A program made the translations under genes and the position numbers. Positions 44,677 through 55,859 of a DNA stretch of 64,000 nucleotides are shown here, piece by piece; position 1 is the first letter of the stretch, and every line of letters begins with the position of its first letter. The DNA is from Thiomicrorhabdus sp. 6S3-12. Lineage in GTDB: Bacteria; Pseudomonadota; Gammaproteobacteria; Thiomicrospirales; Thiomicrospiraceae. The notes under the pieces are model-generated. The model saw only the letters and a program-made list of their open reading frames with translations. It did not search any database and had not been told where the DNA came from. Where the stretch lies: the NCBI RefSeq assembly GCF_017571475.1, contig NZ_JAGETW010000002.1:124001-188000 (forward strand), given 5' to 3'.

Positions 44677-45117
44677 TCACTGAGACGCGTTCGGATTCCC
44701 TCCGCACTTACCTTGAGCACCTTGCGGCATATTCGGACTGCCGCCACACTGTCCACGTTGCTGATACTGGTTGCCACCGCATTTTCCCTGACCGCATTTA
44801 CCTTGCGGCATATTCGGGCTTCCGCCGCACTGTCCGCGTTGCTGGTACTGATTACCGCCGCATTTGCCCTGCGGAGCATTCTGGTTTCCGCCGCATCGTC
44901 CCTGTTGCGGGTATGGATTTCCGCCACATTTTCCTTGAGGCTGGTTAGGGTTGCCTCCGCATTTGCCCTGACCGCATTTAGCATCCGCCAACAGTTTTGA
45001 TTTATCCTGTTCTTCATCCAACAGGATAAACGGGTTTTCTGCCGCCATCGCCGAGCCACCCATTACAGTCGCCGCTACAGCCGCAAGTTGCCGAATAAAA
45101 CCTCTACGAGTATTCAT
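44677..45117 (-). CDS. Cys-Gly repeat exported protein, HvfA/bufferin-like precursor
   Basis: 146 residues from the ATG at 45117, which has AGGAGAA six bases upstream. The N-terminus NTRRGFIRQLAAVAATVMGGSAMA is a Tat-type signal peptide. After an acidic spacer come ten cysteines, each in K/R/Q-C-G-G or KCGQGKCGG settings separated by Asn/Gln/Pro stretches. KCGxGKCG repeats recall the EGKCG class of metallophore RiPP precursors (HvfA/bufferins), whose cysteines are modified by a DUF692 (MNIO) enzyme. No such enzyme or partner gene lies in the window. A plain Cys-rich metal-binding protein is the alternative. Confidence 0.6.
   Translation of the reverse strand: MNTRRGFIRQLAAVAATVMGGSAMAAENPFILLDEEQDKSKLLADAKCGQGKCGGNPNQPQGKCGGNPYPQQGRCGGNQNAPQGKCGGNQYQQRGQCGGSPNMPQGKCGQGKCGGNQYQQRGQCGGSPNMPQGAQGKCGGNPNASQ
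44722..44883. repeat. Two copies of an 81-base unit in the Cys-Gly gene
   Basis: The block starting CTTGCGGCAT at 44721 recurs at 44802, an 81-base period equal to a 27-residue unit with three cysteines (one KCGGNQY, one QCGGSPN, one KCGQ). The copies differ by a few mostly silent bases. Variation in repeat number is likely between strains. Confidence 0.8.
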
Positions 45118-45170
45118 GTCATTTCTCCTATGATTTGCCTTTAAGGCCATTAAACCGTTGTTAAATTCAA

Positions 45171-45386
45171 TCAATCCCGCATAAAACGCCGTCTTATCCA
45201 GTAATCCAGACTGAAATAGCGTCCGCCACCGACCATAAAGAGCGCCAGCAACATTAGAAAATAGGTCACTGCCCACTCAATACCGTTATTCACTATGGCA
45301 AAACTTCCATGCTCGCTCAGCCGCGATGACTGCCATCTTGCCGAATAAACACTTATGGATATTAAATAAAAACTCAATAACCACAC
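45171..45386 (-). pseudogene. C-terminal fragment of a DoxX-family membrane protein
   Basis: 71 residues if the GTG at 45386 is used; a stop codon lies nine codons upstream. The C-terminal half (GIEWAVTYFLMLLALFMVGGGR followed by YFSLDYWIRR) matches the last helix and GGGRYxSLDYW end of DoxX-family quinone-related membrane proteins, which are normally ~130-150 residues with four helices. The first three helices are missing, so this is a remnant. It ends 53 bases before the Cys-Gly gene and on the same strand; DoxX genes are regular members of bufferin/HvfA operons. Confidence 0.55.
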
Positions 45387-45880
45387 TAAACAATAGTAAT
45401 CGTCTATTCAACAACCGTCTGCCAAAACCAGATAAAACTTCTTATAAATCAGATAATTAAATTCTATACAAGCGCGTAAAATCCATATAAACCAGCCATT
45501 TCAACTCTTTTAACTGAAATTCTTCATTCACTGCTTTTCTGTTGACCCCAGACAATCATGTGAAGATATAAATAAAGTCTGAGTATTAACTCATTATTCT
45601 GAATGAGTATTCTCCTAACCCTTTGACGAAAAAGAATTTTGCGCCTTTTTTCTTTTGCCATTCAAAACTTGAGGACGATTATATCCGGGCTATAGGAAGA
45701 CTGCTAAAATGCCAACATCATGAGTCGTATGAGCCATTAGGTGAGATCAGGCGATATCTTATAGTTCTCTGCCAACGGCACAAAACATTGACCTAAAGCG
45801 TTCTCTTGTGTGTGCAAAGAAATCCTGTCCGATGGGGCGTCTAAAACTATTTATTTTATAAAATTGGAGCTGGATTCCGA
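45387..45880. other. 494-base gap before the binding-protein fusion
   Basis: AT-rich, no gene supported. On the minus strand are only short open stretches (the longest about 32 codons near 45450-45550), possibly remnants of the operon that held doxX. On the plus strand TTGAGG, 16 bases, TATAGG around 45668-45695 is a weak promoter candidate for the next operon. Confidence 0.35.
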
Positions 45881-48034
45881 ATGCGCAAATTTTCAATATT
45901 CGTATTCATTTTTATCGTCATAGCACTACTTATCGGGTTTGAAAAAAACTTTTTGATACCGACTCCAGAGAAGACGCCACCTAGCGCGATGACAATTGAA
46001 AATGAACAAATTCATCTGCGCTTTGGCCACAATACGCCAGAAAACAGCGCTCTGCATCTGGCGGCATTACGCTTTGCCGAGCAGGTTAAGCAAAAGACCC
46101 GCAACCGGGTTATCATCGAGGTATTCCCCTCGCAGCAACTGGGCAATGACCATGAAATGGTTGAGATGGCGCGCGAAGGAACCCTCGATATTCTTTTAAC
46201 GCCCACTGCAAAAATGAGCGTCCCACTTCCGGCTATGCAATATGCGGATCTCCCCTTTTTCTTTCCGTCTCGCGAAGATGCTTATGCCTTACTGGATGGA
46301 GAACCGGGTCGGTTGCTGCTCGACAAGTTGAATCAGATTGATCTGGTCGGGGTGACTTTCTGGGAAAACGGCTTTAAACATTTCACCGGCAACCAACCTT
46401 TTCTGCAGCCTTCCGACTTTACCGGAAAGAAAATTCGCGTCATGAAGAGCCGTATCATTATGGATCAATTCCGCGCCTTGGGAGCCGAGCCGGTACCGAT
46501 CGACTTTCATTCCACCCGGCAGGCACTTGCCGATAATGTTGTCGACGGCGAAGAGAATCCTCTGGTCGCAATCGTCAGTATGGGATTTCATGAAGTGCAG
46601 TCAGACTTAGTTCTCAGCGAACATGCCTATTTGGGTTATGTCTTCTCTATCAGCAAGAAAGTCTTCGACAATTTACCCCAGGATGTGCGGACGGTTCTGA
46701 TCGAAACCGCAAAAGAGATAACTCCCTGGGAACGAAATGAGACACAACGACGTGAACAGATGCTTCTCGAACAGATCCGCAAGGCTGGCGTACAAATCCA
46801 CAAACTGACGGCAGAGCAGCGTCAGGCTTTTGCCAGCAAAGTCTCATGGATAGCAAAAGCCTCTGAACCGGTAATCGGCCCCGAAATCATCTCCAAGACG
46901 GAAGAATATTTACTGAATAAATATGGTCCCGCTCCGGAACTTAAAGAACAAATTGTCATCGGTCTTGATGCAGACCTGTCTCTTGATGGCGGCGTGGTTG
47001 GTTTATCCATTAAACGGGGGATCGAATTGGCGCTGGATGAGATCAATACAGCCGGAGGAGTGCTCGGAAAGCCCTTAAGACTGATCGCAAGAGATCACCG
47101 TATGACCGCCAGCATGGGGGTTCGCAATCTGCAATATTTCATTGATCGTGATGACGTTGTAGCGGTTATCGGCGGTAAACACAGCGCAGTCATTATGGAA
47201 GAACTTGCCCTTATCAACCAGGCCCGGATTCCCTATCTGATCCCTTGGGCAGCATTATCGGAGCTTACAGAGAACAATTACGCAGATAACTATGTATTTC
47301 GCATAGCGGTCAATGACCGCCTCGTCTCGCCATTTATTGCAAAATACCTGCTTAAACATCATAAGCATCCTGCTATAGTGGTAGAAAATACCATTTGGGG
47401 TCGAGGCAATATGCAACGTATCTCCAAGTACATGAATGATAAAGGCGTCGCGCCTGGCGTCATCATTACACTGAATCGCGGGCAAGGTGATTTAAGCAAT
47501 GAACTAAAGAAAATCACCGATGCAAAATGCGACTCGATCATTCTCGTTGCCGACAGTAATGAGGCAGCCAATTTTGTGACTCAACTGGCCAATCATCCAT
47601 CCCCGCTTCCCGTGGTTTCTCATTGGAGTATTGCGGGTGGCGATTTTTATCAGCGAGTACATAATGTGTTGCCACGCATCGATTTAAAGTTCTTTCAGGC
47701 TTATTCGACAACCAATAACCGCCCGGAACTAGAGGCACTTCTGAGCCTTTACCGCCAGGTGTATGCCGTACCCAAAAATAAACCGATTAATTCTCCACTA
47801 GCGACTGCTCGAGCGTATGATCTCACTCACTTGCTGGCCTTGGCAATCACACAGGCTGGAAGAACGGATCGAAGCAATGTAAAACTGGCTCTGGAGCATC
47901 TGAAACCCTTTAATGGCGCCATTAAATATTATCAACAGGCGTTCCGCCCTGATAATCACGATGCCTTGAGCGACAATCAATATTTCATGGCTCGCTTTGA
48001 TGACAAGGGCTTCATTGTACCGGTGAGTGAATAG
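45881..48034 (+). CDS. Fusion of a TRAP (DctP) and a LivJ-type binding protein
   Basis: 717 residues. An N-terminal hydrophobic segment (FSIFVFIFIVIALLIGFE) acts as signal peptide or anchor. Residues ~45-345 are a DctP-type TRAP solute receptor (IHLRFGHNTPENSALHLAALRFAEQVKQKT, VEVFPSQQLGNDHEMVEM-like, WENGFKHFTGNQPF, GKKIRVMKS...MDQFRALGAEPVPID). Residues ~355-705 are a Peripla_BP_6/LivJ-type receptor (GGVVGLSIKRGIELALDEINTAGGVLGKPLRLIARDHR, VVAVIGGKHSAVIMEELALINQARIPYLIPWAA). No permease genes are nearby, but a membrane GGDEF-EAL gene follows after 10 bases, so sensing rather than uptake is likely. I know of no named family with both receptors in one chain. Confidence 0.85.
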   Translation: MRKFSIFVFIFIVIALLIGFEKNFLIPTPEKTPPSAMTIENEQIHLRFGHNTPENSALHLAALRFAEQVKQKTRNRVIIEVFPSQQLGNDHEMVEMAREGTLDILLTPTAKMSVPLPAMQYADLPFFFPSREDAYALLDGEPGRLLLDKLNQIDLVGVTFWENGFKHFTGNQPFLQPSDFTGKKIRVMKSRIIMDQFRALGAEPVPIDFHSTRQALADNVVDGEENPLVAIVSMGFHEVQSDLVLSEHAYLGYVFSISKKVFDNLPQDVRTVLIETAKEITPWERNETQRREQMLLEQIRKAGVQIHKLTAEQRQAFASKVSWIAKASEPVIGPEIISKTEEYLLNKYGPAPELKEQIVIGLDADLSLDGGVVGLSIKRGIELALDEINTAGGVLGKPLRLIARDHRMTASMGVRNLQYFIDRDDVVAVIGGKHSAVIMEELALINQARIPYLIPWAALSELTENNYADNYVFRIAVNDRLVSPFIAKYLLKHHKHPAIVVENTIWGRGNMQRISKYMNDKGVAPGVIITLNRGQGDLSNELKKITDAKCDSIILVADSNEAANFVTQLANHPSPLPVVSHWSIAGGDFYQRVHNVLPRIDLKFFQAYSTTNNRPELEALLSLYRQVYAVPKNKPINSPLATARAYDLTHLLALAITQAGRTDRSNVKLALEHLKPFNGAIKYYQQAFRPDNHDALSDNQYFMARFDDKGFIVPVSE

Positions 48035-48044
48035 GCAAGCCTGA

Positions 48045-50324
48045 ATGAATAAGTTTTTTAAACACGGAAGTATTCGTCGCAGAGTCAGTTTCCAAATCAT
48101 TTTCTTGTTGACTCTGGCACTGACGGCCAATTTATTGGCAATGCTGTATCTGGTCAGAGAACAGGCGCTCAACTCAACTCAGACCATGCTGGAAAACCGG
48201 GCCCAGGTGCTGCAGGAAAAAATTGAACAGCATCTTCAGTATCTGCTCGAAAACTCCAACCTGTTGTCCAGCAATCAGCTGATGATCAATGCACTTACCG
48301 ATAGCGAGGGACGAGAAAGATACCTCCCTTCACTGGTCAGCAATTTTCAAAAGGGCAAGGATGTGTTGTCAATCAATGTCCTGGATTATGCTGGTAACGC
48401 CATTTACCAAACCCTGAGTTCACTCCCACAATATAACGATTCTTCCGAACTGCGTCAGGCTCTTGCCTATCGCAAAATGGCCTATCATCTCCGCAAAGGC
48501 GATCACAACATAGAGGTAATCAGCCCGATCGAATATTACGCCACAACCCAAGGCGCTGTGGTGGTCGTGTTCGATCTGGCGGCCATCGTAAATCGCCATC
48601 TGGGCAAAGATGAAGCGAGCTATATTCGTCTGCTGAGCAAAGGAGGAGAAATCTACCAGCATAATTTCAACTCTGCGCTGAATTACGTTACCTACACGCA
48701 CCACAATATAAGCCAAGATACACTGTTTAATCAGTTGAACATCAAGCTCGAGATTGGGCTTCCTGTATCCGTATTCAATTCACAAGTCCGTCAAGCGATT
48801 CTTCCTTTAATGGTATTAGGGATTTTATTTATTATTGCCGGTGCCTACTTTGCCTTGAGAGCCGGCTCTCGCATCGTAAACCCCATTTTGGAATTAAACA
48901 GCCGAGTTGAAGCATCGAAAAAGAACAGAAATATCTTCTGTAGTCCGATTGGTACAGATGATGAACTTGAAGACCTTGCCAAAGCCTTTGACGAACGCAC
49001 ACTGGAGCTGCAGCACCAAGCTGAACATGATTCTCTGACGGAACTCCCCAACAGAGTACTTTTCCTTGATCGATTGCAGCAGGCAATAAAACTCAGTCAG
49101 CGTTCCAAGAAAAAGCTGGCTGTGTTGTTTATCGATTTGGATCGATTCAAAGAGGTCAATGATTCCTTCGGCCATGATACCGGTGACGCCTTATTGCAGG
49201 TAGTCAGCGATAACATCGTTAAAACGCTGCGCGCGAGTGATTCTATCGCCAGATTGGGCGGCGACGAATTTGCCGTACTGCTGGATCATATCGAGCATGA
49301 AGCCGATATTGCTTTCGTTTTGGAAAAAATTCTGCAGATATTCGGTGAACCTTTTAATTTGCATCATCGACAGATCTACACCACCTGCAGTATCGGCGTT
49401 GCAATTTTCCCGGATAATGGTAACAATGCCGAAGAACTGCTGCGCAATGCCGATGCCGCCATGTACAAGGCAAAAGACGAGGGGCGCAACAATTATCAGT
49501 TTTATACAAAAGATATGACACATCTGGCCTACGAACGTCTAATGCTGGAGAATAACCTGCGAATCGCAATTCGCAATAACGAATTTAAGCTTTTCTATCA
49601 AGCGCAGACGGATATGCGCAGCAACCGTTTAATCGGCGCCGAATGTCTGGTTCGCTGGCACCGTGAAAATGAAGGCATTATCCCGCCCGATAAATTTATC
49701 GGCTTGGCAGAAGAGACCGGTCTGATTATTGCAATAGATCGCTGGGTTTTGGAAGAGGCGCTCGCTCAATACCAGCGCTGGATAAAGGAAGGTTTAAATG
49801 TCGGGGTCATCTCTGTCAACCTGTCCGCCATTCAACTAACTCAAAAAGATTTTATCCCCTTTGTGGAACAAGCCGTTAAGCGTCATGACATAGCACCGAA
49901 TAAACTCATGTTCGAAGTCACCGAGACCGCCATTATGCGCTCTCCGGAACAAGCTATGGAAATTCTAAACAAACTTAAACAGCTCGGTTTTGGCTTGGGG
50001 CTGGATGATTTCGGGACGGGGTTATCGTCACTCTCTTATCTGAAAAAATTACCGGTGGATAAAATCAAAATCGATCAGTCATTTATTCGGGATATCCCTC
50101 ATGACGAAGAGGATATGAATTTAACCAAGACCATCATCGCGATGGCCAATAATCTGAACCTAAAAGTCATTGCCGAGGGAGTCGAAACCGAAGAACAGAT
50201 CGCCTTCTTAACCGATAACAGCTGCTATGAAGCGCAAGGCTACTACTATCACAAACCCTGTGATGCAATAGAGATGCATTCAATCCTGTCGGGTGAAGAT
50301 AGACGAATCGCGCCGTTACAATAA
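48045..50324 (+). CDS. Membrane GGDEF-EAL c-di-GMP protein
   Basis: 759 residues: a transmembrane helix (~17-36), a periplasmic sensor region of about 200 residues with a CACHE-like feel (VLSINVLDYAGNAIYQTL), a second helix (~247-268), a HAMP linker, then GGDEF and EAL domains. GGDEF (405-409) is intact with an RxxD I-site at 396-399. The EAL signature reads ECL (533-535), keeping the catalytic Glu; DDFGTGLSSLSYLKKLPVDKIKIDQSFI is intact. It can probably both make and degrade c-di-GMP. Translational coupling to the upstream double receptor suggests it is the signal output. Confidence 0.95.
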   Translation: MNKFFKHGSIRRRVSFQIIFLLTLALTANLLAMLYLVREQALNSTQTMLENRAQVLQEKIEQHLQYLLENSNLLSSNQLMINALTDSEGRERYLPSLVSNFQKGKDVLSINVLDYAGNAIYQTLSSLPQYNDSSELRQALAYRKMAYHLRKGDHNIEVISPIEYYATTQGAVVVVFDLAAIVNRHLGKDEASYIRLLSKGGEIYQHNFNSALNYVTYTHHNISQDTLFNQLNIKLEIGLPVSVFNSQVRQAILPLMVLGILFIIAGAYFALRAGSRIVNPILELNSRVEASKKNRNIFCSPIGTDDELEDLAKAFDERTLELQHQAEHDSLTELPNRVLFLDRLQQAIKLSQRSKKKLAVLFIDLDRFKEVNDSFGHDTGDALLQVVSDNIVKTLRASDSIARLGGDEFAVLLDHIEHEADIAFVLEKILQIFGEPFNLHHRQIYTTCSIGVAIFPDNGNNAEELLRNADAAMYKAKDEGRNNYQFYTKDMTHLAYERLMLENNLRIAIRNNEFKLFYQAQTDMRSNRLIGAECLVRWHRENEGIIPPDKFIGLAEETGLIIAIDRWVLEEALAQYQRWIKEGLNVGVISVNLSAIQLTQKDFIPFVEQAVKRHDIAPNKLMFEVTETAIMRSPEQAMEILNKLKQLGFGLGLDDFGTGLSSLSYLKKLPVDKIKIDQSFIRDIPHDEEDMNLTKTIIAMANNLNLKVIAEGVETEEQIAFLTDNSCYEAQGYYYHKPCDAIEMHSILSGEDRRIAPLQ

Positions 50325-50367
50325 CCGTCTAATAAACAGTCCTGACAGCAACATCAGCAAATAAAAA

Positions 50368-50399
50368 AACCCCATAACCCAAAAGTTATGAGGCTTTTT
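50368..50399. terminator. Bidirectional terminator between the GGDEF-EAL gene and fhs
   Basis: CCCCATAAC and GTTATGAGG with one mismatch, A7 before and T7 after. Confidence 0.8.
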
Positions 50400-50475
50400 T
50401 TAAAGTGCGTCTTAAGTAACTTCAAATTTAATTATCGGAAACGCTCTTTTCAGCACAGCATTTGCACAGAGTGCG

Positions 50476-52155
50476 TCAGAAAAGTCCGGTAATCACGCCC
50501 AGATCATCAATATCAATCTTCTCCGCCGTCGGAACTTTCGGCAAGCCCGGCATGGTCATCATATTGCCGGCAATAGCGACAATAAAACCAGCACCGTTTT
50601 CCAGTTTGATATCGGTAATTTCAACGGTATGTCCGGAAGGCGCGCCTTTAGCGGACGGTTCGGTCGAGAAAGACATTTGCGTCTTGGCCATACAGATCGG
50701 CAGATCACCGTAGTGTTCCTGAAGACGATCGATTTCCGCTTTCACCTTGGTATTGGCAGAAATCCCCGCTGCGCCGTACAGCTTAGTTGCAATGGTCTCA
50801 ATCTTATCCCAGATCGGCGTATTGATATCGTATACATACTCGAAGCCCGGCTCGCGGTTATCGACGATATTCAACACCGCTTCGGCCAGCTCTTCCGCCC
50901 CGGCACCGCCTTCAGCCCAATGCTTGGACACCACACACTTAACGCCCAAAGCTTCGCACTTCTTGATCAACAGATCGGTTTCATCGTCCGAGTCGTAAGT
51001 AAAGTGGTTGATACACACTACCGCCGGCAGACCGTAATTCACCGTCACATTATGAATATGGCGCTCAAGATTGACAAAACCTTTCTCCAAGGCCGCCAGA
51101 TTTTCCTGATTCAGGTGATCTTTCTCAATGCCGCCGTGGTATTTCAAAGCGCGAACGGTTGCCACCAGCACTACCGCCGAAGGCTTCAATTTCGCCGAGC
51201 GACATTTGATGCTGAGGAATTTTTCCGCTCCCAGATCGGCTCCGAAACCGGCTTCGGTAACCGCATAATCCGCCAGTTTCAGAGCGGTTTTGGTCGCCGT
51301 AACCGAGTTACAGCCGTGCGCGATATTGGCGAAAGGGCCGCCATGCACGATCGCCAGATTGTTTTCCAGCGTCTGTACGATGTTCGGCTTAATGGCGTCT
51401 TTCAAAAGTGCCGCCATCGCGCCGTGCGCTTTCAGGTCGCTGGCATAAACCGGCGTTACGCGGTCGGTTTTGTAACCGATAATGATTCGTCCCAGACGCT
51501 CTTTCAGATCGGCGCGGTTGGTCGCCAGACACAAAATCGCCATGACTTCGGAAGCGACCACAATATCAAACCCGTCCTCGCGCAGATAGCCGTTAGCCGG
51601 GCCGCCCTGACCGACGGTGATTTCACGCAAGGCACGGTCGTTCATATCCACGACGCGCTTCCACTTGATGCGACGCGGGTCGATATCCAGCGCATTGCCG
51701 TGATTGATATGATTGTCAATCATCGCCGCCAGCAGGTTATGCGCTACGCCGATGGCATGGAAATCGCCGGTAAAGTGCAGGTTAATGTCTTCCATCGGAA
51801 CTACCTGCGAATAACCACCGCCGGCCGCCCCGCCTTTCATACCGAAACATGGCCCCAATGACGGTTCGCGCAAACAGATCATGGTTTTTTTACCGAGACG
51901 GTTCAATGCATCGCCCAGACCGACCGTGGTGGTGGTTTTTCCTTCCCCAGCCGGGGTCGGACTGATCGCAGTGACCAGAATCAGCTTGCCTTCTTCGCCG
52001 TGCTGATGCGACAGGTCGTCAAAATACTCCAATGAGAGTTTCGCCTTATAGTGCCCGTAAGGGTCCAGATGCTCAGCCGGAATCCCGAATTTTTCCTCTG
52101 CCAGTTGGATAATCGGTTGCATTTTCGCCGCTTGGGCAATTTCAATATCCGACAT
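50476..52155 (-). CDS. fhs: Formate-tetrahydrofolate ligase
   Basis: 559 residues. It makes 10-formyl-THF from formate, THF and ATP. The P-loop [42 protein letters not shown] and the C-terminal GPSGHTVEI-type end are typical. Most gammaproteobacteria use FolD alone, so Fhs here probably supports one-carbon salvage linked to glyoxylate and glycine. It follows glcF by 21 bases, same strand, making glcDEF-fhs a likely operon. Confidence 0.97.
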
Positions 52156-52176
52156 AATTAAAAGCTCCTCGTAAAT

Positions 52177-53382
52177 TTACTCGCTAAAGAGTTCTATCCA
52201 GTGTTTAACCGGTGTTTTCGTGCCCTTCTGCAGATGCATCAGACAGCCGATATTGGCGGTAACAACCAGTTCCGGTTTATGTGCCAACAGATTCTCTAGC
52301 TTGTTGTTTCTTAGTTTTTTAGACAGTTCCGGCTGGAAAATAGAATAGGTTCCCGCCGAACCGCAGCATAAATGGGCATCCTGAACGTGGTTAACGCGAT
52401 AGCCCAGTTTACGCAGAGTCTCTTCCACCACTCCCTGGAGCTTTTGGCCGTGTTGCAAAGTGCACGGAGAGTGAAAGGTAATTTTCTGGTTGTCGAAATG
52501 GGTGAAAATCGACAGATCCTGTTTCAATAAAAATTCCGATATGTCATGCGTCGCCTCGACCACTCGGCGGGCTTTTGCCGCATAATCCTGATCTTCTCGT
52601 AGCAGGTGCGCATAGTCTTTGATCATCACACCACAACCGCTGGCATTGGAGATGATCGCCTTGGCTCCTTTATCCAGATAGGCGCACCAGGCGTCGACAT
52701 TGGTTTTCACCTGCTCCAAGGCATCCTTATGTCCGGAAAGATGGTGCTCGACTGCGCCGCAACACTGCGACTGCGGGGTTTCGATGACATTGAATCCGAG
52801 CTTGTTCAGCACCTTGATACTGGCCTGATTGATATTCGGCGCCAACGCCGGCTGAACGCACCCCGAAACCAGCAGAACCGAATGCTCAATCGCATCCGCC
52901 CGATCCTGCAGTTCCTGTTTCAACGCCAGCTCTTCGACGGTAAACTTGACCGCTTTGGAGTGACGTAGAAACGGCATCATCTTAATGCTCAGATTGAAGA
53001 ACCACGGAGTCGTCAGACTTTTGCGCACGGCGTAACGGATCAGACGCTCCCAGGGTTTACGCGGACTCGCCTCCTCAATCACCTCGCGGCCGATATCCAG
53101 CAGATGCCCGTACTCCACGCCGGACGGACAGGTCGTCTCGCAGGAGCGACACGTCAGACAGCGATCCAGATGATCGAGCGAGTTGGCCGAAATCCCGTTA
53201 CCTTCCAGCGCACTCTTAATCAGATAGATACGTCCGCGCGGCGAATCCAGTTCATCACCGATCAGCCCGTAAGTCGGACAGGCCGAAAGACAGAATCCGC
53301 AATGCACGCAGTTACGCAGAATCTTATCGGCGGTCTTCCCGGTCTCGGTCGCCAGTAAATCTTTAGGCAAATTCGTTTGCAT
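52177..53382 (-). CDS. glcF: Glycolate oxidase iron-sulfur subunit
   Basis: 401 residues with two 4Fe-4S motifs (CVHCGFCLSACPTY and CLTCRSCETTCPSGVEYG) and two CCG motifs (QCCGAVEHH, CCGSAGTYSIFQPELS). GlcF carries electrons from the GlcD/GlcE flavoproteins to the quinone pool. Encoded six bases after glcE. Confidence 0.96.
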   Translation of the reverse strand: MQTNLPKDLLATETGKTADKILRNCVHCGFCLSACPTYGLIGDELDSPRGRIYLIKSALEGNGISANSLDHLDRCLTCRSCETTCPSGVEYGHLLDIGREVIEEASPRKPWERLIRYAVRKSLTTPWFFNLSIKMMPFLRHSKAVKFTVEELALKQELQDRADAIEHSVLLVSGCVQPALAPNINQASIKVLNKLGFNVIETPQSQCCGAVEHHLSGHKDALEQVKTNVDAWCAYLDKGAKAIISNASGCGVMIKDYAHLLREDQDYAAKARRVVEATHDISEFLLKQDLSIFTHFDNQKITFHSPCTLQHGQKLQGVVEETLRKLGYRVNHVQDAHLCCGSAGTYSIFQPELSKKLRNNKLENLLAHKPELVVTANIGCLMHLQKGTKTPVKHWIELFSE

Positions 53383-53388
53383 AGTTCT

Positions 53389-54357
53389 CTACAAGTCCTT
53401 AAACACATGATGCGGGTCAAAGACTTTCTTTAAGCCCTGCTTGATCTTCTTCACACCCTTGCCGTCGTTATGGCGCGGCAAGAAACGGTCATCCCAAAGG
53501 GTAACATAAGGGTGATCCGGCTTGTGTTCACTGGCCACCCAGCGTCGTGTCCCCCCCATACCGACGGCGATGGTGCCATCGATACAAGGGTTGGTGCTTT
53601 CGACATCAAGGCGCCACAGTTTCTGCCCCGGCTCCAGTTTAGGCTTAAACGGGTTGAGGATTTTCCAGATCGAATTATCGACCGCTTCCACGCCGACACG
53701 GTTGGTCTGCTTCGGATGCTCGCCCATAACGCGATAGTAGAAATGCCCTTGATAATAAGCGCCGCCCGACATCGGCAGAGAGGTTCCGGCCATCTTATTC
53801 ATTAAGACAATCGCGTCACACTCCGGCATCTCGATGCGATAAGTCACCTCTTCGACCAGCGGCATCACCTTCAGACTCATTTCCGTCACCAGCGCCATAG
53901 ATCCTTTCGACCCTGCCAGCATACGCGAGACATCGTAACCGGCAACATTCTTAATCATTTTGCCGCCGAAGTTCAGTTCGCGCCCCTGACCGTCGAGCAG
54001 TTTGGTACCCAGTACGTAGTCGCGCAGCTTGCCGCGGAACGGTTTGGCCGGGCCGGTCAACGCGCAGGCATAGGTCCCGCCGATCGTCGAATTACCGTAT
54101 TCCGGCGGTTCGAAAGCAACCATCTGGTTCTTTTCCGCCAGCACCTGATGCAATTCTTCCAGCGTCGTTCCGGCGCGAACCGTAATCACCAGCTCGGACG
54201 GTTCATACGAAAGGACTCCGGAGTAGCCTTCCATCGACAACACTTCGGCGTCATCGTACAAAGGCACTTTCGAGCCGCCGCCGACAATCTGCAAAGTTTT
54301 ATTCTCGGCCGCCGCATCCTTGATCTGCTCGGCCATTTGCTTAAATCTCTGTTCCAT
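53389..54357 (-). CDS. glcE: Glycolate oxidase FAD-binding subunit
   Basis: 322 residues, somewhat shorter than E. coli GlcE (about 350). The PCMH FAD domain shows LQIVGGGSKVPL, LSYEPSELVITVRAGTTLEEL and STIGGTYACALTGPAKPFRGKLRDYVLG. Its ATG overlaps the glcD stop by one base (TAATG). Confidence 0.95.
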   Translation of the reverse strand: MEQRFKQMAEQIKDAAAENKTLQIVGGGSKVPLYDDAEVLSMEGYSGVLSYEPSELVITVRAGTTLEELHQVLAEKNQMVAFEPPEYGNSTIGGTYACALTGPAKPFRGKLRDYVLGTKLLDGQGRELNFGGKMIKNVAGYDVSRMLAGSKGSMALVTEMSLKVMPLVEEVTYRIEMPECDAIVLMNKMAGTSLPMSGGAYYQGHFYYRVMGEHPKQTNRVGVEAVDNSIWKILNPFKPKLEPGQKLWRLDVESTNPCIDGTIAVGMGGTRRWVASEHKPDHPYVTLWDDRFLPRHNDGKGVKKIKQGLKKVFDPHHVFKDL

Positions 54358-55793
54358 TAAAAACGCTCCAGATGACCAAACGGCAGTTGTCCGTTATGCA
54401 CATGCATATGCCCCAGTTCCGCACAGCGGTGCAGCGTCGGCACCGCTTTGCCCGGATTAAGCAGACCGGTGTCGTCAAACACCTCTTTAATCCCGTGGAA
54501 GATTTCCAGTTCGTGACCGTGATACTGGTGACACATGGAGTTCAGTTTCTCCACGCCGACACCGTGCTCGCCGGTAATGGTTCCGCCGACATCGACACAC
54601 AGATTCAAAATCTCGCCACCGAATTTCTCAGTCTGCTCCAACTCGCCCGGCTTATTCGCATCATACAGAATCAGCGGGTGCAGATTACCGTCACCGGCGT
54701 GAAAAACATTCGCCACACGCAACCCGTATCTTTCCGACATCTTCTTAATCTCTTCCAGAACATACGCCAGTTTGCTGCGTGGAATGGTGCCATCCATACA
54801 ATAGTAGTCCGGCGAATAGCGCCCGACTGCCGGGAAAGCGTTCTTGCGCCCCTGCCACAAAGCGATACGCTCGCGCTCACTCTGCGACACCTTGATTTCG
54901 TAAGCCCCTTTGGAAGTCAGAATATCGGCGACACGCTTGGCATCAACCTGAACCTGATCGAAGCTGCCGTCCACTTCGCACAACAACAGCGCTTCGGCGT
55001 CGGTCGGATAACCAACCTTGGCAAAATCTTCCGCCGCTTGGATCGAGAACTTGTCCATCATCTCCAGACCGGCCGGAATAATCCCCTGCTCCAGCACGGC
55101 GGTTACCGCGTCGGCACATTCGGTCACCGATTGGAAAGCAGCCATAACCAGCTGCGCCGCATCCGGTTTCGGCAGCAGTTTCAGCTTGATTTCAACGATC
55201 ACCCCCAACAGCCCTTCCGAACCGTTCAGCAACGCCAACAGATCGACGCCGTCGTCTTTTTCGTCGAAGACATACTCTTCGCCGTCCATATTCAAAACCC
55301 GGATCGAAGTTACGTTATGCACAGTAAGACCATATTTAAGACAGTGCACACCGCCGGAGTTTTCCGCGACGTTGCCGCCGATCGAACAGGCGATCTGCGA
55401 CGACGGGTCCGGCGCATAATACAGTCCGTGCGGTTCGACCGCTTCGGAGACCTGAATATTGCGCACGCCCGGCTGAACGACGGCGATACGCTGCAAGGGG
55501 TCAACTTTGAGGATCTTATTCAATTTAGAAAGGCCGAGAATAATTCCGTCCTGCAACGGCAAGGTGCCACCAGCCAGTCCGGTTCCGGAACCGCGGGTAA
55601 TCACCGGCGTGCCGTGCGCTTTACAGATACGCAAAACCTCTTTCACCTGCTCGACCGTTTCCGGCAAAGCAACCGCAAGAGGCTTCTCTCGGTAAGCAGA
55701 GAGAGCGTCGCACTCATAGGGGCGGCACTCCTCGTCCGAGGCCAGCACACACCCCTTTGGCAGGGCATTTTTTAGGGCTTCAACAACGCGCAT
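54357..55793 (-). CDS. glcD: Glycolate oxidase catalytic subunit
   Basis: 478 residues from the ATG at 55793 (MRVVEALKNALP), chosen because AAGAGAT precedes it and because the TATAAT at 55825-55830 would put transcription start beyond the earlier candidates (ATG 55826, TTG 55841). FAD enzyme oxidising glycolate to glyoxylate: RPYECDALSAYREKPLAVALPETVEQV, TRGSGTGLAGGTLPL, NVFHAGDGNLHPLI, TGEHGVGVEK. Starts glcDEF(-fhs). Confidence 0.96.
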   Translation of the reverse strand: MRVVEALKNALPKGCVLASDEECRPYECDALSAYREKPLAVALPETVEQVKEVLRICKAHGTPVITRGSGTGLAGGTLPLQDGIILGLSKLNKILKVDPLQRIAVVQPGVRNIQVSEAVEPHGLYYAPDPSSQIACSIGGNVAENSGGVHCLKYGLTVHNVTSIRVLNMDGEEYVFDEKDDGVDLLALLNGSEGLLGVIVEIKLKLLPKPDAAQLVMAAFQSVTECADAVTAVLEQGIIPAGLEMMDKFSIQAAEDFAKVGYPTDAEALLLCEVDGSFDQVQVDAKRVADILTSKGAYEIKVSQSERERIALWQGRKNAFPAVGRYSPDYYCMDGTIPRSKLAYVLEEIKKMSERYGLRVANVFHAGDGNLHPLILYDANKPGELEQTEKFGGEILNLCVDVGGTITGEHGVGVEKLNSMCHQYHGHELEIFHGIKEVFDDTGLLNPGKAVPTLHRCAELGHMHVHNGQLPFGHLERF

Positions 55794-55824
55794 TTTTATC
55801 TCTTGTATCTCTTCAAGGAATGCC

Positions 55825-55859
55825 ATTATAATTGAGACCAATCAACTTTCTCATAACAT
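55825..55859. promoter_or_regulatory. Back-to-back promoters for glcD and the aminotransferase
   Basis: Minus strand: TATAAT at 55830-55825 (weak TGAGAA -35 at 55853-55848). Plus strand: TTGAGA at 55832-55837, 16-base spacer, TAACAT at 55854-55859. The two polymerase sites overlap, so the divergent glycolate genes probably share control. Confidence 0.4.

Follow-up and report, generated by a model that had tools for sequence, protein, structure and literature searches.

The window analyzed here, i.e. the complete stretch of 64,000 nucleotides from Thiomicrorhabdus sp. 6S3-12, contains two adjacent genes on the forward strand. The upstream gene codes for a protein in which two solute-binding proteins are fused, and the downstream gene, which starts 10 bases after the upstream open reading frame (ORF), codes for a membrane protein with GGDEF and EAL domains. 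The features are as follows:

45881-48034, + strand: fused double solute-binding protein of 717 aa (ORF, Pfam, alignment, AF2 model)
45884-45952, + strand: predicted N-terminal helix, residues 2-24, putative inner-membrane tether (DSSP on the AF2 model, hydrophobic segment)
46022-46846, + strand: DctP (TRAP receptor) half, residues 48-322 (Pfam PF03480, conserved R186/N226)
46952-48004, + strand: Peripla_BP_6 (LivJ-type) half, residues 358-708 (Pfam, partner-type positions N416, E561, L648 and E672)
48045-50324, + strand: two-TM membrane GGDEF-EAL protein of 759 aa, proposed output protein (ORF, Pfam, TM segments, motifs)
48150-48779, + strand: periplasmic dCache-like sensor domain, partner residues ~36-245, proposed docking site (AF2 model, structure alignment)

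In the 717-aa protein, Pfam identifies DctP at residues 48-322 (E 5.2e-78) and Peripla_BP_6 at residues 358-708 (E 2.8e-36), both well over the curated cut-offs. An earlier sequence-only reading had placed a TRAP/DctP and a LivJ/Peripla_BP_6 receptor on this one chain, and the domain search found both and makes their coordinates exact. The AF2 model of the fusion, built with an input of 82 sequences, has a mean pLDDT of 94 and a pTM of 0.90, and the latter value suggests that the two halves keep a fixed mutual arrangement. A solved chain spanning both halves was not present among the best 60 of 85 matches, and a Foldseek search with the model returned no structure spanning both halves among the best 50 rows. 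No lipobox was seen in the sequence of the window copy, and we infer from the model that helix 2-24 is an uncleaved membrane anchor. Among the N termini of 82 aligned fusions, 74 are hydrophobic (anchor or signal), four are lipobox-like and four are of other kinds, one of the latter being cut by a contig end; this scoring used a simple rule and no signal-peptide predictor.

In the downstream protein, the GGDEF domain spans residues 326-483 (E 9.6e-52) and the EAL domain residues 503-738 (E 7.8e-77), hydrophobic segments begin at residues ~18 and ~251, and Pfam gives a weak match to dCache_1 (E 1.7e-6) that is below the curated cut-off. The motifs RASD-x5-GGDEF, ECLVRW, EVTE, DDFGTG and AEGVET are present, and the protein keeps the GGDEF and EAL signatures together with a likely I-site, the spacing of RxxD upstream of GGDEF being that of an I-site. 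Pfam, the two TM segments and the motifs thus agree with the earlier description of a membrane GGDEF-EAL protein with a sensor region and intact signatures 10 bases downstream of the receptor. In 20 aligned GGDEF-EAL partners, GGDE[FY] is found in 18, RxxD in 16, and ExLxR and DDFGTG in all 20; in other words, the GGDEF motif is degenerate in two and the RxxD site is missing in four. Because the motifs are retained in the window protein and in these partners, synthesis and breakdown of c-di-GMP are both possible activities.

The AF2 model of the window sensor region (326 aa) has a pLDDT of 90.4, and its best alignments are with the sensor domains of KinD (Z 17.3), DctB (Z 17.1) and, with a lower score, LuxQ (Z 14.2). 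According to this model, the periplasmic domain of the partner is of a dCache-like fold. Pfam dCache_1 matches 62 of 81 sensor regions at E up to 0.01. The sensor model also aligns, with Z 15.3, to residues 353-593 of 5ere, a structure of 540 residues with a title that names an extracellular ligand-binding receptor. Of 142 sequences matching the Peripla_BP_6 profile, the best 60 do not include 5ere, and the alignment is a hint that it could be a natural single-chain receptor plus dCache protein. Such a protein, if found, would be a Rosetta stone for the pairing.

The ORFs flanking the pair in the window are non-permease genes as read by eye, and the DctM and PF02653 permeases of the window genome are on contigs other than that of the fusion, in line with the previous observation that no TRAP or ABC permease adjoins the pair. 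Within positions 45000-50700, no Rfam family was detected. Promoter-like matches show no excess (10 versus 8.5 in shuffled sequences), terminator-like matches number 9 versus 4.8 in shuffled sequences with none directly 3' of either gene among the matches listed, and short repeats are chance-like. Visual inspection shows a hairpin with a T-run behind it at ~50370-50401, between the GGDEF-EAL gene and a convergent gene.

Full-length, stop-free homologues of the fusion are present in two other genomes of the genus, with 79% (G020) and 67% (G024) identity, and the GGDEF-EAL gene follows by 10 and 9 bases, respectively. The gene order in G020 is that of the window, and in G024 the pair lies elsewhere, between ORFs that by eye resemble those for thymidylate synthase and dihydrofolate reductase. 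Overall, 3/32 genus genomes have the fusion and the identical three have the sensor domain. Scanning 84,980 species genomes, we obtained 326 candidate stretches and 260 relatives, of which the nearest 80 were kept, and both domains lie in one ORF in all 80 loci, including four that are cut by a contig end; fusions farther out than the nearest 80 of 260 might behave otherwise. Three of the loci (L050, L058 and L120) agree with L034, L035 and L038 in their genes and in the length of the contig and were taken to be the same contigs, and one copy of each entered the alignment. The 81 aligned homologues besides the window rule out a sequencing join of two genes. Thus, the fusion is real, as had been proposed, and, with at least 80 loci across several phyla in the genome survey, it is not rare.

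Going by the record titles, the loci come from Campylobacterales, Gammaproteobacteria, Betaproteobacteria (for example Azoarcus and Zoogloea), Magnetococcales, Nitrospirae, Nitrospinia, SAR324, Desulfobacterales/Desulfobulbaceae and one Planctomycetota MAG. MAGs make up many of the records; among the carriers with strain titles are Amphritea atlantica, Parazoarcus communis, Dechloromonas denitrificans, Oceanospirillum beijerinckii, Zoogloea oleivorans and Desulfobacter vibrioformis. In an evenly drawn class sample searched at E 1e-70, 9/369 genomes match, seven with full-length fusions and two with Peripla_BP_6-only proteins, and in a phylum sample 73/398 genomes match, a list that mixes fusions and single-receptor relatives. 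Among plasmids searched at E 1e-60, only three Azospirillum records match, each over the Peripla_BP_6 half alone, and these three relatives are annotated as 'ABC transporter substrate-binding protein'. A viral origin was also considered and rejected: five stretches from viral_contigs match a peptide pattern and none of them encodes a relative of the window protein.

After leaving out four loci in which the contig ends inside the fusion gene (L092, L112, L114 and L117), a homologue of the sensor lies directly downstream on the same strand in 76/76 readable loci (phmmer, worst E 6.1e-27). In all 76, receptor and partner are on separate ORFs and the partner has two N-terminal TM segments; relative to the stop codon of the receptor gene, the partner starts between -89 and +108 nt, and in 71/76 loci between -30 and +50. 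Together with the same 3/32 genus genomes and 7/7 fusions of the class sample, these data bear out that receptor and sensor co-occur. We note that shared regulation can be an alternative cause of this adjacency and co-inheritance.

By contrast with the constant sensor, the output domain varies. Based on phmmer domain calls, the first downstream ORF carries a kinase in 56 loci, GGDEF-EAL in 17 and no output domain in three. In two of these three the next overlapping ORF supplies the output (GGDEF-EAL in L061 and a kinase in L113), and the third (L069) is truncated where its contig stops, giving 57 histidine kinases, most of which are hybrid, and 18 GGDEF-EAL proteins, plus the one cut locus, over 76 loci. 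Pfam agrees for six fusion partners scanned, among them that of L039, which breaks off ahead of the output part, and for the partners of two Peripla_BP_6-only receptors (L040 and L041); all these Pfam-scanned partners except that of L038 match dCache_1 weakly. In a quick, unrooted tree of the 82 fusions, with 21 labeled GGDEF-EAL, 59 labeled kinase and two unlabeled (L069 and L039), and with L061 and L113 labeled by the next overlapping ORF, kinase versus GGDEF-EAL needs a single change, and the GGDEF-EAL fusions form one side of a branch with an SH-aLRT of 93 that is not starred. Thus, the suggestion that the pair is a device writing to c-di-GMP would apply to the 18/76 loci with GGDEF-EAL output, and c-di-GMP is just one of the outputs, a histidine kinase being the commoner partner (57/76). 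Near the kinase-type pairs, we considered 34 response-regulator ORFs, after two opposite-strand ORFs were dropped and three from L036/L037 were added; HD_5 is present in 12 of them, 11 with an HD-GYP motif by a pattern of our own, GGDEF in three and HATPase_c in 12. The HD_5/HD-GYP and GGDEF domains in these response regulators suggest that some kinase-type fusion pairs may also feed into c-di-GMP.

Permease genes are not part of this arrangement. In six-frame phmmer searches (E 1e-5) of up to 6 kb on each side, some of it cut, DctM, DctQ, LivH and UrtB gave no matches in the 80 fusion loci. A LivM-LivG fusion used as query matched four segments in three loci (L057, L060 and L114), none adjoining the fusion; since this query includes an ATPase domain, the four matches are probably other ABC ATPases. 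Thus, with a membrane sensor in 76/76 loci and none of the four permease families matched in 80, homologues of the fusion are not permease-paired, in agreement with the sequence-only reading.

The picture is mixed for relatives with a single receptor domain, which we sampled as 20 hand-picked, non-random loci from the phylum sample (15 Peripla_BP_6-only and five DctP-only). In 5/15 Peripla_BP_6-only loci a homologous sensor is next to the receptor gene and there is no permease match, and in the other 10/15 a multi-TM ORF is next and LivH and UrtB match in the locus. None of the five DctP-only loci adjoins a sensor, 4/5 have a DctM match and L160 is without either. Of the 369 genomes in the class sample, 10 have the sensor domain, namely the seven fusion genomes and three (G160, G142 and G136) in which it lies behind a Peripla_BP_6-only receptor; one further genome (G383) has a Peripla_BP_6-only receptor with an adjoining kinase that falls under the sensor cut of this sample. 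One Azospirillum plasmid has the same two-gene form, a receptor named as an ABC transporter protein with a kinase behind it. Because sensors occur behind Peripla_BP_6-only receptors, the original partner of the sensor was perhaps a lone Peripla_BP_6 receptor, to which the TRAP half would have been joined later. The fusion itself is perhaps of single origin: in a comparison of 45 hand-picked fusions out of 82 with 19 other receptors, a single origin is not rejected (p-AU 0.57), while the fusions are not one clade in the free tree.

To which half the sensor domain is matched was approached by comparing evolutionary distances. For the TRAP half, distances correlate with those of the sensor domain with r 0.84 (81 non-independent pairs) and a partial r of 0.79, while the partial r is 0.27 for the Peripla_BP_6 half. 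In 52 kinase loci, the correlation between TRAP half and sensor is 0.87, and 0.76 with the share of the kinase domain removed. The TRAP half correlates with its own Peripla_BP_6 half at r 0.48; an exchange of Peripla_BP_6 halves was considered as the cause, but the two segments of the Peripla_BP_6 domain correlate with each other at only 0.49. Saturation of the Peripla_BP_6 distances is therefore likelier than exchange, and it weakens the comparison of the halves. Four Peripla_BP_6 positions track the type of partner among fusions, sensor-linked stand-alone receptors and permease-linked receptors: E672 (80/82, 9/9 and 0/11, respectively), L648 (71/82, 9/9 and 0/11), E561 (71/82, 9/9 and 1/11) and N416 (80/82, 7/9 and 1/11). 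These positions are candidate sensor contacts, although shared descent could also explain their pattern. Covariation points to the TRAP half, but the half common to the sensor-linked stand-alone receptors is Peripla_BP_6, and both halves may touch the sensor.

Candidate ligand-site residues are kept in both halves. In the TRAP half, R186 (82/82) and N226 (80/82) correspond to what we take to be the carboxylate-clamping residues of SiaP, and the nearest structures among the matches listed are 4ovs and 7bbr, the latter titled as a sugar-acid binding protein; the TRAP half therefore probably binds a carboxylate. In the Peripla_BP_6 half, R474 and D479 are present in 82/82 fusions, and W456, R474, S at 476, D479, W506, H581, Q606, Y646 and D647 are common to the 82 fusions, the nine sensor-linked receptors and 9-11 of 11 permease-linked receptors; we take these shared positions to include the pocket. 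In four permease-linked loci, in which some of the ORFs were scanned, we found amidohydrolases matching cytosine-deaminase models below the model cut-offs (L150 and L158), a hydantoin-racemase-family protein, an NCS1/cytosine-purine-type permease and an adenine-deaminase-type enzyme (L146), and a gamma-glutamyltransferase (L152). Based on these enzymes, a nucleobase-like or cyclic-amide ligand for the Peripla_BP_6 half is our guess, and a doubtful one.

We suggest that the 717-aa protein is a membrane-tethered double co-receptor that acts on the dCache domain of its neighbor and is not part of a transporter, a reading to which we assign a probability of roughly 0.85. In this model, which is drawn by analogy to NspS-MbaA and LuxP-LuxQ, each half of the fusion would be a Venus-flytrap that closes on its own ligand, probably a carboxylate for the TRAP half and perhaps an amide or nucleobase-like compound for the Peripla_BP_6 half. 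The fusion would dock on the membrane protein from the adjacent gene, at its dCache-like periplasmic domain, and the closing of one or both halves would alter the dCache dimer. The signal would then travel along both TM helices and through a HAMP-like segment to the cytoplasmic part, where the GGDEF-EAL domains would make or break c-di-GMP in this genome and a histidine kinase, mostly hybrid, would act in most relatives. The docking, the ligand classes, the direction of the response and the two-input logic are parts of the model that we infer. In its widest form, i.e. a widespread two-input module in which the TRAP half would report a carboxylate and the Peripla_BP_6 half an amide or nucleobase-like compound to one dCache domain with c-di-GMP or phosphorelay output, the model is tentative and has somewhat less than an even chance of being correct.

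In an alternative scenario, the fusion is a transport receptor, the halves of which serve TRAP and Liv-type ABC permeases encoded elsewhere, and the neighbor merely regulates. The window genome (G000) does encode a single DctM on contig C17, next to a small ORF with 3 TM segments, and two adjacent PF02653 permeases on contig C11, and single-receptor relatives, whether Peripla_BP_6-only or DctP-only, often have permeases next to them. However, the PF02653 pair comes with a receptor gene of its own immediately upstream, the same genome carries another DctP that is not fused, DctM matches are found in 30/32 genus genomes versus the fusion in 3/32, and in G024, one of the fusion genomes, nothing matches PF02653 at E 0.001. 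Together with the lack of DctM, DctQ, LivH and UrtB matches in the 80 fusion loci, these findings make a role in transport very improbable. The adjacency in 76/76 loci and the finding that 10/10 sensors in the class sample follow a Peripla_BP_6-containing receptor fit a dedicated complex better than an arrangement in which the dCache domain of the partner senses small molecules directly and the receptor only scavenges or buffers free periplasmic ligand; this arrangement, for which the likeness of the partner fold to the direct sensors DctB and KinD speaks, is improbable.

A variant of the co-receptor model is harder to dismiss. Here, a single half binds ligand and its companion is a rigid module for docking or structure, as would be consistent with a sensor covariation that is strong in the TRAP half (partial r 0.79) but not in the Peripla_BP_6 half (0.27) and with the fixed arrangement of the halves suggested by the pTM of 0.90. 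However, many positions in both halves, including the candidate ligand-site ones, are kept in nearly all 82 fusions, which is more than a mere scaffold would need. We consider this one-input variant unlikely, but a serious competitor for the way in which the double co-receptor would work.

Transporter-derived receptors that signal to membrane sensors are known as single receptors. Two unrelated receptor families fused on one chain, with one sensor domain kept across several phyla despite a change of output, would naturally form a two-input gate serving c-di-GMP and phosphorelay signaling. If the two-input reading is true, bacteria of several phyla compare extracellular carbon and nitrogen signals via a single receptor. 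The finding also gives a new label to genes that one would normally assign to transport, and the fusion-partner pair offers a direct route to understanding how dCache domains read receptor closure.

Receptors triggered by solute-binding proteins are an established kind, as set out in an excerpt of PMC9602780. Among the matches listed in a search of the open literature by titles and the starts of abstracts, we found no report of a TRAP plus Peripla_BP_6 fusion or of its sensor family. According to a passage of a review, only SBP_bac_3 of 27 PBP-clan families has been studied in c-di-GMP networks (PMC8846402). A close counterpart on the output side is NspS-MbaA of Vibrio cholerae, in which, as described in part of PMC8967002, the occupancy of NspS, a single periplasmic binding protein with two polyamine ligands, sets the balance between c-di-GMP synthesis and breakdown by MbaA. 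Both systems pair a periplasmic receptor with a membrane GGDEF-EAL protein, on which NspS acts and the fusion would act; unlike NspS, the receptor described here is a membrane-anchored chain in which two receptor families are fused. Two serial Venus-flytrap domains feed into one signaling protein in BvgS/EvgS (portion of PMC8534201), but there the flytraps are on the kinase chain, whereas here they are on a separate protein beside a dCache-like sensor. Similarly, GlnPQ-type importers have tandem substrate-binding domains on one chain (section of PMC8025302); in these, the domains are linked to the membrane part of a transporter, while the fusion has a signaling partner and no permease. On the sensor side, the same portion of PMC8534201 describes LuxP-LuxQ of Vibrio harveyi as a periplasmic receptor in complex with a tandem-PDC (dCache-like) sensor. 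The partner domain in the window aligns to LuxQ (2hje, Z 14.2; 1zhh_B, Z 14.1) with ~8% sequence identity in the structure alignment, and the two systems differ in that LuxQ is paired with a single AI-2 receptor and the sensor described here with a tethered fusion of a TRAP and a Peripla_BP_6 receptor.

Among the loci with relatives of the fusion or of its halves (L-numbers), receptor and sensor genes are also found in the following arrangements.

L034, 169-3398, minus strand: a Phosphonate-bd receptor together with a hybrid kinase, forming a further receptor-sensor pair just past the fusion-kinase pair
L144, minus strand: an 844-aa ORF, one chain with a Peripla_BP_6-like part followed by GGDEF and EAL
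L061, 8071-10348, Hydrogenovibrio sp. SC-1: a partner encoded in two overlapping ORFs, one for the sensor and one for GGDEF-EAL

In L034, the gene for the 307-aa receptor overlaps that of the hybrid kinase, which has a weak sCache-type match. In the L144 ORF, the Peripla_BP_6-like part was matched weakly (E 9e-7) and a signal peptide was not evident by eye. The fusion copy in L061 is without a clear N-terminal hydrophobic segment. L093, L099 and L110 are related loci, two of them titled Desulfobulbaceae or Deltaproteobacteria; their partners have a HATPase match, and neither HisKA nor a receiver domain was matched in them (all by phmmer). It is also in these three loci that the Peripla_BP_6 half has diverged most relative to its own TRAP half.

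In the window's own genome, a second DctP (C11:465279-466130) and the DctM (C17:51873-53186) are on separate contigs, with the second DctP gene adjoining an ORF that matches the methyl-accepting chemotaxis type.

The receptor pair itself is flanked in the window by the following features.

44677-45117, minus strand: small protein that looks secreted; its start is twin-arginine-like and it has numerous GKCGGN-type repeats
50370-50401: hairpin and then a T-run (by eye), in the stretch where the GGDEF-EAL gene and the formate-tetrahydrofolate-ligase-like gene converge
50476-55841, minus strand: formate-tetrahydrofolate ligase-like gene and three glycolate-oxidase-like subunits (named by eye), convergent with the receptor pair

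The hairpin and T-run had no entry in the computational terminator scan. The genes at 50476-55841 are probably unrelated to the receptor pair because, although similar neighbours are present in G020, none was seen adjoining the pair in G024, both being genus genomes that carry the fusion and the GGDEF-EAL gene. A small protein similar to that at 44677-45117, secreted-looking and with the same type of start and repeats, is encoded in L012 (12415-12936), and both bear a resemblance to the cysteine-rich, metal-binding bufferin-like peptides.
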